Assembly (NCBI GenBank): GCA_002710775.1
Contig: PALX01000005.1
Span: forward strand, 43,249-77,603
DNA from: Micavibrio sp.
GTDB lineage: Bacteria; Pseudomonadota; Alphaproteobacteria; Micavibrionales; UBA9664
Direction: 5' to 3'
Length of the DNA: 34,355 nt
The notes below the pieces were generated by a model. That model was not told the origin of the DNA. It saw nothing but the letters and a program-made list of their open reading frames with translations, and ran no database searches. Positions 29,514-34,355 of this stretch are shown piece after piece. A program made the translations under genes and the position numbers. How positions within the stretch are numbered: position 1 is the first letter of the stretch; every line of letters begins with the position of its first letter.

Positions 29514-30221
29514 TTATCTGGCGATAAGTACATGAAAAAACTGATAATTTTCACCCGTGCGGCGACAGGCTGTATGTCTGCCATCTAAGGATGCAGCTTC
29601 ATCACCAATGATGTTTTCCAGTGGCTCTCCAAAAATGCCATGGAATTTAACGGCTTCTAAGCTTGGGCGAGAACTTGTATCTGAAGGAATATCTTCATCT
29701 TCTGGTGTAATGCCTAGAAGCTCATTAATGGCTAAACAGACTTCTTTTTTGAGATAGTTTACAGACATGAGGAGCTCAGGTTGTTCCGTGCCGATATTAT
29801 GAACGGGCATAGCGGCGTTAAACCACCACCTTTTATAAGAACGTCCTGTATGATGCACGGGATCATGAGCATCTGGATGGCCTGGGAATTGATAAGCGAT
29901 TTGCCCACCATCAAACCAGAAAACCTGATTTTTAGGGTCCATACAGGCATCATGTTCAAAGTAGTCCGTATTTTTGCCTATACCGTCATAATCGAAGCAA
30001 AGTTGTGTTTCATCAATGCCGTTCTCAAGCATTTTATTGACGGCGCGCTCAACCATCATGGAATAGCCGATCATCTGTTTAGCATAGGCAATAGCTTTGT
30101 CATGTGGCACTTCTTTATATGTAACTTTGTAGTATAGGTCGAATTTGAGGGTAACGAAAACGATAAGGGCAAAGACGACAAAAACACCAAGCCCTATAAA
30201 TTTGAATTTCTTATGCGCCAT
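29514..30221 (-). CDS. Single-pass membrane protein, paralogue of the pilin-like protein at 30304 (B)
   Basis: 235 residues. One N-terminal membrane helix (FIGLGVFVVFALIVFVTL, ~8-25) anchors an extracytoplasmic domain. It is related to the protein upstream: QLCFDYD then YFEHDACMDPKNQVFWFDGGQIAYQF, a later CLAINELLGI, and the ending YQFFHVLIAR match the other's LCFDIDD, YEHASCANTRNRVFHPDGG, CNAINAELGI and YVFYHALIAR. The conserved cysteines suggest disulfides. Unlike its partner it lacks a Gly before the hydrophobic stretch, so it is probably not processed as a prepilin. It is the last gene of the dot/icm-type run, with a possible own promoter at 30263-30291. Function unknown. Confidence 0.75.
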   Translation of the reverse strand: MAHKKFKFIGLGVFVVFALIVFVTLKFDLYYKVTYKEVPHDKAIAYAKQMIGYSMMVERAVNKMLENGIDETQLCFDYDGIGKNTDYFEHDACMDPKNQVFWFDGGQIAYQFPGHPDAHDPVHHTGRSYKRWWFNAAMPVHNIGTEQPELLMSVNYLKKEVCLAINELLGITPEDEDIPSDTSSRPSLEAVKFHGIFGEPLENIIGDEAASLDGRHTACRRTGENYQFFHVLIAR

Positions 30222-30262
30222 ACACTCTGTTTACACTGCCTTTCGTGACATGTTGAAATATC

Positions 30263-30291
30263 ATCCTATAAAGCGAATATTGGTTTTTCAA
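30263..30291 (-). promoter_or_regulatory. Possible promoter for the gene at 29514-30221
   Basis: TTGAAA (30291-30286), 17-base spacer, TAGGAT (30268-30263; four of six), within the 82-base gap between the two pilin-like genes. Confidence 0.35.
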
Positions 30292-30303
30292 GAACTAAAA
30301 AAA

Positions 30304-31041
30304 TTATCGCGCGATGAGGGCGTGGTAGAAGACATAGTCATCGCCGCCACCTGTTGTTTCTTGGATACAACCTGTCTTCTTTCCCAGTAATTCTGGTGCT
30401 TGCCCACTATCGGCAATCGTCGTTCCTGCTGCCGTTGCATTGAACGTGCCTGTAAAGGCATGTGCCGTGTTAATTGCGGTATCAATAGGCGGTGCACTTG
30501 CTACTATACCCAGTTCAGCATTGATAGCATTGCAAATTTCTAGGCTGCCCTCGGCTGTATCGTTCATTCGAACGACATATAAAAGTTCCGTACAAGCTGC
30601 TGGGCCGCATGTTGTGCCAACATTTTCTACTTTGTTGCCTCCATTAATTCTTTCTGATGCAATGGAAAAACCATCTTGGCCAGTGAAAGCTTTATAAAAA
30701 ATGCCGCCGCCATCTGGGTGAAAGACACGATTACGTGTGTTGGCACAAGAAGCATGTTCGTACATCGTATCGCCGCCAGGGTAATCATCAATATCAAAGC
30801 ACAGGTCGTTTTCAGAAACACCGCGTGCTTGTAGGCGTTGAACAGCCGATTCCAGTGATTTTGCAAATGTAATGAGTTCAGAAGCGTAAAGCTGAGATTG
30901 CTCTTTTGAGACGGAAGCGCTACTGCCGCGCATACCTTGTGTGATGGCAAAACCAAGCGCGGCAAAAAGAGCGACGGCGACGAGAATAATAAAGAAAATG
31001 TTTCCGTTTTCTCTATGGGTTGGGCTGAGTGTTGAGGACAT
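30304..31041 (-). CDS. Pilin-like protein with class-III-type prepilin leader (A)
   Basis: 245 residues from the ATG at 31041, chosen because AAAGGGAGG lies just upstream, inside the end of dotL; a longer frame to 31158 overlaps dotL and is unlikely. The N-terminus SPTHRENGNIFFIILVAVAL-FAALGFAI looks like a short prepilin leader: polar residues, a Gly that could be the cleavage site, then a ~20-residue hydrophobic helix. The usual Glu at +5 is missing, as in tip pseudopilins of the GspK/PilX kind. Six or more cysteines and LCFDIDDYPGGDTMYEH, CNAINAELGI and the end YVFYHALIAR are shared in pattern with the paralogue B. It starts one base after the dotL stop, so translation is coupled. This is not a standard Dot/Icm component. 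Confidence 0.8.
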   Translation of the reverse strand: MSSTLSPTHRENGNIFFIILVAVALFAALGFAITQGMRGSSASVSKEQSQLYASELITFAKSLESAVQRLQARGVSENDLCFDIDDYPGGDTMYEHASCANTRNRVFHPDGGGIFYKAFTGQDGFSIASERINGGNKVENVGTTCGPAACTELLYVVRMNDTAEGSLEICNAINAELGIVASAPPIDTAINTAHAFTGTFNATAAGTTIADSGQAPELLGKKTGCIQETTGGGDDYVFYHALIAR

Positions 31042-31042
31042 A

Positions 31043-33505
31043 TTAGCCTCCCTTTTTCGGTATGATTGTTTTGGGTTTTTGCTGGCCAGCCTGTGCGTCT
31101 TGACCTTGTTGCAACTGAGGCTGATTAAATAGGCCAGATTTAATATTATCCGCGGCACCCATCAGGATATTTTTTACGTCATCACTGAGGCCGTCTGGCA
31201 TTAGGTATTCGCCTTCATTTGCCAATGCTTCAACAGCATCTTCAGCGTTATAAACATCGTTGCCGACGATTTTTGGTTGCTTGCCACCACCTGAGCCGCC
31301 TTGCGCTTCGCCTTCTTCTTCACCATCACTTTGATCTGACGCGGAAAGATCATCCCATGTTTTATCATCTGTCGTTTTTTGTGTGCCGTCAGAATTCGTT
31401 TGTGGCACACCGCCAGCAGTAACTTTTTCTGTCTCTTTCTCCGTCTGTTTCTGGGGCGCTGACGGCGCTTTAGCTGCCGCACCGGATGAACCATCGTCAC
31501 CGGAAATTTCGGCTGGGTCTAAGCCATTAAGCGCCGCATAAGCTTCAACGATAGCCATGCTTCCTGCCTCGATTGCATCACAGCCCGCCTGTTCGGCAAT
31601 ATCAAAGCCATGGGCAAGGGCGGCTATTTCATCAGGTGTCTCAACAGGAGATTCGGCCTTGGCGGCGGTCCATGTCTTGGAAACCATGCGGTCACGAAGC
31701 TTGGCCAAATTGCCGACATTTTTAAGTTCGGAGTCTGTCGGTGGCGGTAGCGGCAAGAAGCGTTGAACACGCATTGCCTTGGCTTTACCCGTATCTGCAT
31801 AGAAAACATTTACGTCATTAACATTGTCTGAGAATGCGAAGACGGCTTTACCGGGCGGGTAAGAGCCGAGCGCGTTATAATCCGCATTGCTTCGAATTTG
31901 CAGGCTGGCTTGTGTGCCCCCTGTATAGCTACTCGAGAAGTCACCAGCTTTTGTGTCAAAGCCTGTCACCTCAGTCACCAGCGAGTCGCCGACTACTTTT
32001 TCAAAAAATTCTTTTGTTTGTGTCGGGTCTTCAAGTTTACCGAAGATTTTAATGTTACAGTTACCGGCAATAGAGCGCGCTTCTTCCTTCACGCGCTTTT
32101 CCATAGCAGGCAAGTCCTGCGCTGCGTAAACTAGACAGAAACCCAGAGAACGGGCTTGCGCGGCCATCACAGCCATGCCAGATGTCGTATAATATCCAAC
32201 CTCGTCAAAGATAGTCATGAAGGGCGTCGCTGAGTGGGTTGGTTTATTCTCAATCGTAGAAGCAGAACTACCCTCAACGCTCGCGCCGAGTGTCGAACCC
32301 ATCATTCCTTTGATGGTGGCCGCAACAATTTTACCGAGGTTGGCAATTTCGTCTGAGGATTTTTCTAGAGCTGGGATCAGCGTCACCATGATACGTCTGT
32401 TCAGAACGATATCGATCATATTGATGTCAGCAGCTTGTGAATCGAAGATATAGCCGTAATCATCGCCAAGGGATTGTAGGGCACGGGTGAACTGCATGGA
32501 CAGATAACCGTGTTGCTGGCGGACAACTTGTGTATCAACCATCGGTGTGTCAGGGCCAGCAGGCTTTTCATTCCCGTCATCGTCAAAAGCGGCGTCTACA
32601 TAGCCGGGTAATGTGTTCAAATACCCAACAAGCGATTCTCTGAGTTTTTCAGGTACGGCCTCATCGCGGCTAAGACGAATAATCGGACCGAGTTCGAGAT
32701 ATTTTCGGATGGATGAGATTGAAAGCGGAATATCTTGGTTGTCACGTTTCCATGTCAGCGCTGGCATCACCGAACCTATCAACGAAACTGCCCGTTCTTT
32801 CCACATGGCATTGTCACCTTCTGCCTCAGGCATAAGTGATACAAGCATTTGTGTCAGATAAGAGGCTGAACCGCTGGAGAATGGGTTCATAGTGTTAGAT
32901 GCGGCGCGCTCATCTGAGTTCCCTGTCATATAGTTCAGGACAAAAAGGTCATCATCGCGCCCAAAACGGCGGACAAGCGAAGATAGCGAGGACCAAAGAT
33001 CCGTGTCAGCTTTACCGTCAATATAAACAAAACCTGAAGCCCAGCACAGTGCATTAGTTGCGAGTGCTTTTAACCCTTCGGTTTTACCAGACCCTGTCGT
33101 ACCGAGGAAAAGAATATGCGTACGAGCGTCACTGTTTGAAAACCAGACTTCTTCACCGCTCTCATCTTTGTTACCAATGTAGAGGATACCTTCGGCTTTA
33201 CCAGAACGCCCGGCGCCTTGATTTTTGGGGTCTTCAAACTTTTTATTCGCCGTCATCGGCATTTTGTAAGGCACATATTTTTCTTGCTTTATAAGCCACC
33301 AAAAATAAAGCACACCGAGAAGGAGGATAAGGTCGAGCAGATATACGGCATGAGGCAGAAATAAAATGAGCGCGATAAAAAAGACATAAACGCTGACAGC
33401 ATTATTGCTGTTCGACATCCATTCGGCAATACGCACCCTTAAGGGACGTGTATCCCTTAAAAAGTGATCGAGGCCGTGGCCGTATTTTTTGGTATCTAAT
33501 GCCAT
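31043..33505 (-). CDS. dotL: DotL/IcmO-like type IV coupling protein (type IVB secretion ATPase)
   Basis: 820 residues. VirD4-type coupling ATPase that recruits effectors to the Dot/Icm system. Two N-terminal membrane helices (~38-55, ~58-72), Walker A LGTTGSGKT (134-142), a DGKADTDLW segment (~163), and Walker B FMTIFDEVGYY (~430) followed by AAQARSLGFCLVYAAQDLPAME, as in DotL. The last ~200 residues form an acidic, Gln/Gly-rich low-complexity tail where Legionella DotL binds IcmS-IcmW and LvgA; the sequence here is not obviously similar, so the adaptors may differ. It lies between an unknown single-pass protein and the pilin-like gene. DotM nearby strengthens the assignment as DotL rather than VirD4/TraG. 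Confidence 0.88.
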   Translation of the reverse strand: MALDTKKYGHGLDHFLRDTRPLRVRIAEWMSNSNNAVSVYVFFIALILFLPHAVYLLDLILLLGVLYFWWLIKQEKYVPYKMPMTANKKFEDPKNQGAGRSGKAEGILYIGNKDESGEEVWFSNSDARTHILFLGTTGSGKTEGLKALATNALCWASGFVYIDGKADTDLWSSLSSLVRRFGRDDDLFVLNYMTGNSDERAASNTMNPFSSGSASYLTQMLVSLMPEAEGDNAMWKERAVSLIGSVMPALTWKRDNQDIPLSISSIRKYLELGPIIRLSRDEAVPEKLRESLVGYLNTLPGYVDAAFDDDGNEKPAGPDTPMVDTQVVRQQHGYLSMQFTRALQSLGDDYGYIFDSQAADINMIDIVLNRRIMVTLIPALEKSSDEIANLGKIVAATIKGMMGSTLGASVEGSSASTIENKPTHSATPFMTIFDEVGYYTTSGMAVMAAQARSLGFCLVYAAQDLPAMEKRVKEEARSIAGNCNIKIFGKLEDPTQTKEFFEKVVGDSLVTEVTGFDTKAGDFSSSYTGGTQASLQIRSNADYNALGSYPPGKAVFAFSDNVNDVNVFYADTGKAKAMRVQRFLPLPPPTDSELKNVGNLAKLRDRMVSKTWTAAKAESPVETPDEIAALAHGFDIAEQAGCDAIEAGSMAIVEAYAALNGLDPAEISGDDGSSGAAAKAPSAPQKQTEKETEKVTAGGVPQTNSDGTQKTTDDKTWDDLSASDQSDGEEEGEAQGGSGGGKQPKIVGNDVYNAEDAVEALANEGEYLMPDGLSDDVKNILMGAADNIKSGLFNQPQLQQGQDAQAGQQKPKTIIPKKGG

Positions 33506-33533: not shown

Positions 33534-34061
33534 TTATTCGCCTAAAAAATCATCAGCAGAGACCGGGACGCCCGATGGCGCGTTCTCGCTATTAATAGGT
33601 GTTTGTTGTGTTTGTGGGGTGTTTGTTCCACTTGTCTGTTGTACTTGGCTTGGTATATAGCCCTGACGACCAACCGAATTCAGGAAGCTAAAAATTATAA
33701 AAATAACAACGGCGAGGAGTAAAATTTTACCCCAAGGAAAGCCTTTGCCTGTCTTTACCTCACCTGTGACATGACATTTTTTAGAAGCTTTATGCAGAGC
33801 TTGAGTTGCCTTAATTAGTGCATTCATCGCGCGGGCGCGGCTATTGAATGTTGTGATGACTTCTTTAGTCTTCCCTTTTTTTTGTACAAGATGAAACAAT
33901 TGCGCCACGTCGTCAGACTCAATCTCGAAAAAACAGCCCTGCGCCTCTGTCAGACTTGCGCGCCATACAGAGGGTATGTTTGCATCAGGAAAAGACAGAA
34001 CAAGCACATCGCCTACAACCATAGCCTTAGTTTTGTGTCCGCCTGTAATATTCTCAATCAT
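33534..34061 (-). CDS. Unknown single-pass membrane protein between dotM and dotL
   Basis: 175 residues. A cytoplasmic N-terminal domain (~1-105) starts MIENITGGHKTKAMVVGDVLVLSF and appears beta-rich then helical (NSRARAMNALIKATQALHKASKK). One membrane helix (~112-128, ILLLAVVIFIIFSFLN) follows, then a Gln/Thr/Pro-rich tail ending PVSADDFLGE. Not a recognised Dot/Icm component; in Legionella icmP (dotM) and icmO (dotL) are adjacent. AAAGG precedes the ATG at a fair distance. Gaps are 36 bases to dotM and 28 to dotL, so it is in the same operon. By position it could be a partner of the coupling complex; this is inference. Confidence 0.75.
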   Translation of the reverse strand: MIENITGGHKTKAMVVGDVLVLSFPDANIPSVWRASLTEAQGCFFEIESDDVAQLFHLVQKKGKTKEVITTFNSRARAMNALIKATQALHKASKKCHVTGEVKTGKGFPWGKILLLAVVIFIIFSFLNSVGRQGYIPSQVQQTSGTNTPQTQQTPINSENAPSGVPVSADDFLGE

Positions 34062-34097: not shown

Positions 34098-34355
34098 TTA
34101 ATTACTGCCGAGCGGTTTCATAATGCCCGCTATTTTTTTGCCTTCTTTTTTCTTGGAGTATAAGAGCTCAGGGATCGGGCGCGCTCTGTCGCTTTCCAAG
34201 TGTTCGATGAGGACATTAACAGCTTCATCAATTTTTGGCACGGGGATCGGGCGCATTGTACGTTTCTCGCTTTTATAATGGGCCATCGCGGCAAGGGCTT
34301 CGGTGTGGTATGAATTTTTACCGAGGTTATTCAAGGCATACCAAAGATTACGGTC
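34098..34355 (-). CDS. dotM: DotM/IcmP-like type IVB secretion protein, C-terminal end only
   Basis: The frame is open to the right edge; the visible 85 residues read DRNLWYALNNLGKNSYHTEA, then LAAMAHYKSEK and PIPVPKIDEAVNVLIEHLES. This matches the conserved C-terminal region of DotM (LWYALNNLGR, EALGAMAH, PIPRVDTA). DotM is an inner-membrane protein of the Dot/Icm coupling complex whose cytoplasmic domain binds effectors with acidic Glu-rich signals. A TTG at 34334 is an internal codon, not the start. Downstream genes on the same strand are the unknown single-pass protein and dotL. Confidence 0.85.
   Translation of the reverse strand, partial: DRNLWYALNNLGKNSYHTEALAAMAHYKSEKRTMRPIPVPKIDEAVNVLIEHLESDRARPIPELLYSKKKEGKKIAGIMKPLGSN

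Follow-up and report, generated by a model that had tools for sequence, protein, structure and literature searches.

A pilin-like gene directly downstream of dotL and its leaderless paralogue in a Micavibrio genome

By analogy, the closest functional parallels to the locus described here are the Kil system, the IncI pilus and its associated transfer system, and the truncated pilin Flp2. The Kil system of Myxococcus xanthus combines a Tad pilus, whose minor-pilin tips are interchangeable, with a needleless type III secretion system (T3SS) and a short prepilin peptidase, KilA (PMC12075869). In TP114, the IncI pilus gives partner choice alongside the transfer system (PMC9045228). Flp2 of Bdellovibrio bacteriovorus is a pilin paralogue without the cleavage-site Gly that is still required for predation (PMC5430801). 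The genome paper on Micavibrio aeruginosavorus, in turn, found no evidence for type IV secretion (PMC3189940).

Here, we consider a window of 34,355 nucleotides from a Micavibrio sp. assembly (contig PALX01000005.1, positions 43,249 to 77,603), which is the whole stretch of DNA that was analysed. Its minus strand carries, in this order, the end of a dotM-like gene, a gene for a 175-aa membrane protein, dotL, two genes that we name P and Q (A and B of the original prediction), a tmRNA gene and sspB (Table 1). P, the copy with the prepilin-like start, begins 1 nt past the dotL stop and is co-encoded with dotL and dotM, while Q has a plain anchor. The dotL product matched NF041447 with an E value of 3e-116 over residues 99-601, under the equivalog cut-off of that model, and TraG-D_C was matched as well. 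The DotM-like gene is complete in the loci of relatives.

Table 1. Features surrounding P and Q, with positions counted from the first letter of the window
Feature	Position	Strand	Basis
DotM-like gene, C-terminal end; runs off the window	34098..34355	-	PF23127 DotM_C, E 1e-8
Membrane protein, 175 aa, between dotM and dotL; position kept in several relatives	33534..34061	-	ORF, loci of relatives
DotL/TrbC-type coupling ATPase gene; stop abuts P start	31043..33505	-	NF041447, TraG-D_C
P, pilin-like protein, 245 aa; leader MSSTLSPTHRENG, then NIFFIILVAVALFAALGFAITQ; predicted disulphide C170-C225	30304..31041	-	ORF, model, family of 7 in genome
Q, leaderless P paralogue, 235 aa; short N-terminal anchor with K26 and D28	29514..30221	-	ORF, alignment, model
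Permuted alphaproteobacterial tmRNA gene, between Q and sspB; tag ANDNFVSRVAANDNGAFAVAA	29085..29493	-	RF01849, 221 bits; ARAGORN (tag)

The original prediction held that P and Q are diverged paralogues, and this was borne out: BLASTP aligned Q with P at 83 bits (E 7e-24, 29% identity, 242 columns), Q recovered P at E 9e-16 in a whole-genome search, and the similarity is, judged by these scores, not due to chance. Both open reading frames lie on the minus strand where they had been placed, and every shared motif that had been named was found in both proteins, namely LCFD, the pairs YEHASC/FEHDAC, RVFHPDGG/QVFWFDGG and CNAINAELGI/CLAINELLGI (P first), and the C-terminal ends YVFYHALIAR/YQFFHVLIAR. 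The N-termini also agree with their earlier description, in that P has a prepilin-like leader without Glu at position +5 of the predicted mature protein (Gly13, then a hydrophobic stretch with Ile at +5), and Q begins with an ordinary membrane anchor, MAHKKFKFIGLGVFVVFALIVFVTLKFDLYYKV. What proved too narrow was the scale of a simple pair, since P belongs to a large family that is tied to a type IV filament (T4F) machine, and is located in the Dot/Icm coupling operon. The proposed search for further paralogues, carried out with P against the whole genome, gave five more and therefore 7 copies in total in this 1.66-Mb, 90%-complete assembly.

Matches to the P family were present in 39 of the 55 genomes of the order, mostly with 2 to 9 copies and with extremes of 26 and 40, and a class-wide sample yielded matches in 13 of 385 genomes, including this one and three others of the order. 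The 40 copies belong to G005 and the 26 to G012, and those inspected are mostly scattered single genes amid housekeeping genes. In the public collection, the named records that contain members are Micavibrio MAGs and Alphaproteobacteria. The family gave only chance-level matches in Pfam and NCBIfam, where no model, pilin models included, was reached, and again only chance-level matches in a sequence search of the PDB; it is previously undescribed. P and its relatives show the general pilin pattern of a short hydrophilic leader, a Gly and about 20 hydrophobic residues, which is missing from Q. The leader has a median length of 12 aa and is mostly net positive, Gly13 is present in every aligned member other than Q, and the consensus that follows the Gly reads N-[VAI]-L-F-x-I-L-I-A-V-A-L-F-A-A-L-S-Y. 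At position +5, P and almost all other members have Leu, Ile or a similar residue in place of Glu. The heads that follow are variable, with a predicted disulphide. In a 60-row alignment, the mean identity was 75% over the 24-residue N-terminal stretch versus 29% over the head, the former value being too high, as an N-terminal pattern had served to scan the collection. We therefore turned to 18 dotL-linked members picked by position instead of motif; there, the contrast was smaller but still clear (54% versus 30%), so that N-terminal conservation as a mere artefact of the scan was rejected.

The T4F machine is encoded in a locus whose order is secretin, ASH-domain protein, GspE-like ATPase, GspF-like platform, two unknown proteins, a member of the P family, and a second pilin-like protein that also lacks Glu5. 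This locus was seen in the present genome (L044/L045) and in many relatives, and the family members it contains form a single clade (89/95). Of the 55 genomes of the order, 34 have the platform gene. Family members numbered two or more in 33 of these 34 versus none of the 21 others (Fisher 2.6e-14, with genomes that are not independent of each other). Among genomes at least 90% complete, the corresponding counts were 27/27 and 0/14. The joint absence of platform gene and family recurs in five families of the order, of which f2, f3, f5 and f7 also hold genomes positive for both. One member of the family is encoded together with an ATPase, a platform and a secretin, as seen from the locus itself, and the family as a whole is present jointly with the platform gene. 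Regarding the processing enzyme, an A24 peptidase was detected in 53 of the 55 genomes, and a short A24 peptidase gene lies on the same contig about 6-8 kb from the platform gene in 16 of the 34 genomes with a platform gene (a coordinate count), with complete T4F loci that include it in L216 and L217. The search for a prepilin peptidase suggested by the original prediction succeeded in part: one A24 peptidase was found in this genome, but it is located in a Tad-type locus, and none was detected beside the T4F locus of this 90%-complete assembly. In a genome with a single family member (G024), a short A24 peptidase gene lies between asd and plsY (L218:7069-7605), the rest of the T4F locus is gone, and the lone family member sits beside this remaining gene, which looks like a deletion remnant of the locus. 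Related T4F loci were also observed in other alphaproteobacterial orders (L197, L198, L199, L200, L204), where the pilin-like proteins mostly begin GIAIGPILF, again without Glu5; their occurrence there indicates that the T4F system is wider than Micavibrionales.

We then focused on the link between the family and dotL. A family member directly follows dotL on the same strand in 17 of the 30 dotL loci inspected, and in most of these linked loci its start lies between -23 and +4 nt relative to the dotL stop. One genome (G012) carries two tandem family copies after dotL, both with intact leaders. G050 has an A24 peptidase gene away from its T4F locus, at a distance of about 3 kb from dotL (L194:1369-1884; C1:1854446). 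Since the link was absent from several other families of the order among the 30 loci, it is old but not universal. DotL orthologues themselves occur in 52 of the 55 genomes, with or without the T4F machine, and DotH was present in 17 of 18 tested genomes; it was not found in this incomplete assembly. Because the linkage is limited to some families and DotL is kept whatever the pilin content, the arrangement could be a frozen gene position, inherited without functional coupling. We regard this alternative as a serious contender that falls just short of being probable: the stop/start overlap has been kept in most linked loci even though the heads are only about 30% identical, and in family f3, the link is present in all 14 inspectable machine-bearing genomes versus none of three machine-less ones, so that the linked gene has gone where the machine was lost.

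A second question is what kind of filament the family would build. Its members might be pseudopilins of a type II-like secretion machine, forming a short periplasmic piston in which the numerous copies would act as substrate-specific loading subunits and not as surface adhesins. The GspE/GspF-like motor and platform are in line with this view, and so is the best N-terminal match, which was to GspK-type minor pseudopilins, although this match was not significant. GspK likewise has a prepilin-type N-terminus without Glu5, but the heads show no similarity. Moreover, GspC, GspG, GspH and GspK are missing from M. aeruginosavorus, and pilus proteins have been suggested as their substitutes (PMC3189940). 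However, the secretin of the T4F locus scored best as MshL/PilN of pili, above GspD, and the copy numbers of up to 40 greatly exceed those known for pseudopilin sets. Taken together, we consider the pseudopilin alternative unlikely.

Next, we asked where Q belongs within the family. The claim of a duplication was supported by the tree, in which Q clusters with the copies that follow dotL in f1 and f7 (93/78), although the split between Q and P relative to that between f1 and f7 has an inner support of only 80/32. The best match of Q elsewhere, at 109.6 bits, was the one copy that G001, a genome of the same genus, has after dotL; P itself scored 57.8 bits in the same search. Given the grouping of Q in the tree, an origin from one of the scattered paralogues was rejected. 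As anticipated by the original prediction, one copy has the prepilin-like pattern and the other does not: Q has lost it and kept the head. Under closer inspection, Q retains all 15 head positions that are at least 80% conserved in the family, including C162, C219, N166, G105 and R235, versus six of the 18 equally conserved N-terminal positions, the Gly and the Asn being gone and K26 and D28 falling inside the would-be assembly helix. When only the dotL-linked set is used for comparison, Q retains 16 of 19 head positions and 2 of 6 N-terminal ones. Frame or contig artefacts aside, Q is the only one of about 120 collected members that has no prepilin-like start. This loss of the cleavage-site Gly is shared with Flp2, which differs in being a short Flp pilin that keeps its Glu-Tyr, and the two are unrelated in sequence as far as the motif shows. 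No orthologue of Q was found outside this genome, the same-genus G001 included, and so Q could be a decaying copy. While its restriction to one genome, its long branch and its absence from the same-genus relative would all suit a functionless duplicate on the way to being lost, the 235-aa frame is intact, and decay after an early N-terminal loss should have cost some of the 15 conserved head residues; we find this rather improbable, and a role of Q as a fixed membrane partner plausible.

The structural comparison that had been proposed gave a divided answer. AlphaFold models of Q and P (pLDDT 88.4 and 87.3, built from nearly the same alignment and hence not independent) show the same order of elements, namely helix, long helix, two strands, helix and two strands, in a pilin-like layout. 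The two N-terminal helices nearly touch in P (15-38, 41-72) and are apart in Q (11-30, 40-66). The models have the long helix, the sheet strands and, in P, C170/C225, but Foldseek returned no relative from the PDB for either model at E < 1, pilins included, in a search that had no positive control for distant pilins. This comparison neither confirms nor refutes a pilin, and the identification as one consequently rests on the sequence pattern together with the genomic context. That the family consists of uncut single-pass inner-membrane proteins of unassigned role, whose Gly and hydrophobic stretch are merely a conserved anchor, would agree with the lack of Glu5, of a pilin fold match and of a peptidase adjoining the T4F locus in this genome, but is very unlikely in view of the invariant Gly after a short leader, an N-terminal stretch far more conserved than the head, the constant position in a locus of secretin, ATPase and platform, close to which many genomes have an A24 peptidase, and the presence or absence of family and platform gene together.

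Most likely, then, P serves a Glu5-less type IV filament as a minor pilin-like subunit and is encoded with Dot/Icm coupling proteins, and Q is most likely a membrane-fixed copy of its head. The joint explanation, in which P is a T4F subunit coupled to Dot/Icm and Q is its duplicate held in the inner membrane, we consider moderately probable. P would be expressed as the last gene of an operon comprising dotM, the gene for the transmembrane protein and dotL, inserted with its N-terminus inside and presumably cut after Gly13 by a prepilin peptidase. The hydrophobic helix would then build it into the filament or its tip, where it would display its variable, disulphide-locked head; since it seems to be translated together with the Dot/Icm coupling proteins, P may connect the secretion system with contacts made by the filament, probably contacts with prey. 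Q would have arisen by duplication at this locus, with its head retained but both the cleavage Gly and the helix for assembly lost. Because of these losses it should remain anchored in the inner membrane, its head facing the periplasm, where it might serve P as a partner that does not assemble, as a decoy or as a regulator. Counting against this explanation are the missing Foldseek match, the failure to reach any Pfam or NCBIfam pilin model, the lack of Glu5, and the location of the sole A24 peptidase detected in this 90%-complete assembly in the Tad-type locus, with none adjoining the T4F locus.

How does this arrangement compare with the systems introduced above? The R64/IncI thin pilus (PilN-PilV, type IVb) and IncI Dot/Icm-like transfer resemble it in that a type IV pilus and a Dot/Icm-type system occur in one cell, but the P family belongs to a different locus and lacks Glu5. 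A further, R64-like pil locus lies on contig C31 of this same genome (L186:1-12466); its pilins have Glu5 (SLLELLLV, TLIELLLV) and it adjoins an icmT-like gene, a plasmid-like pairing as read from the sequence. When the P family was compared by profile with this genome's R64-like pilin, only the N-termini aligned, and not significantly. With Kil, the likeness would lie in a predator that has alternative pilin-like subunits and a filament acting with a secretion system, and the short peptidase KilA parallels the short A24 peptidase of the T4F loci; the machines differ, Kil pairing a Tad machine with a T3SS and Micavibrionales, judged by their genes, a GspE/GspF-type machine with Dot/Icm. It is tempting to speculate that Micavibrionales couple a Glu5-less filament to Dot/Icm such that the pilin co-translated with DotL, here joined by Q, signals prey contact to the coupling ATPase, and that the orphan copies are interchangeable prey-binding subunits; this extension is tentative and, as a whole, somewhat unlikely.

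The occurrence of DotL in 52 of 55 genomes contrasts with the published reading of the cultured predator M. aeruginosavorus as having no type IV secretion (PMC3189940). A pilin-like subunit in the dotL operon and a family of up to 40 copies offer handles on how external predators might touch their prey and deliver proteins, and Q provides a natural test of a pilin head acting without filament assembly.
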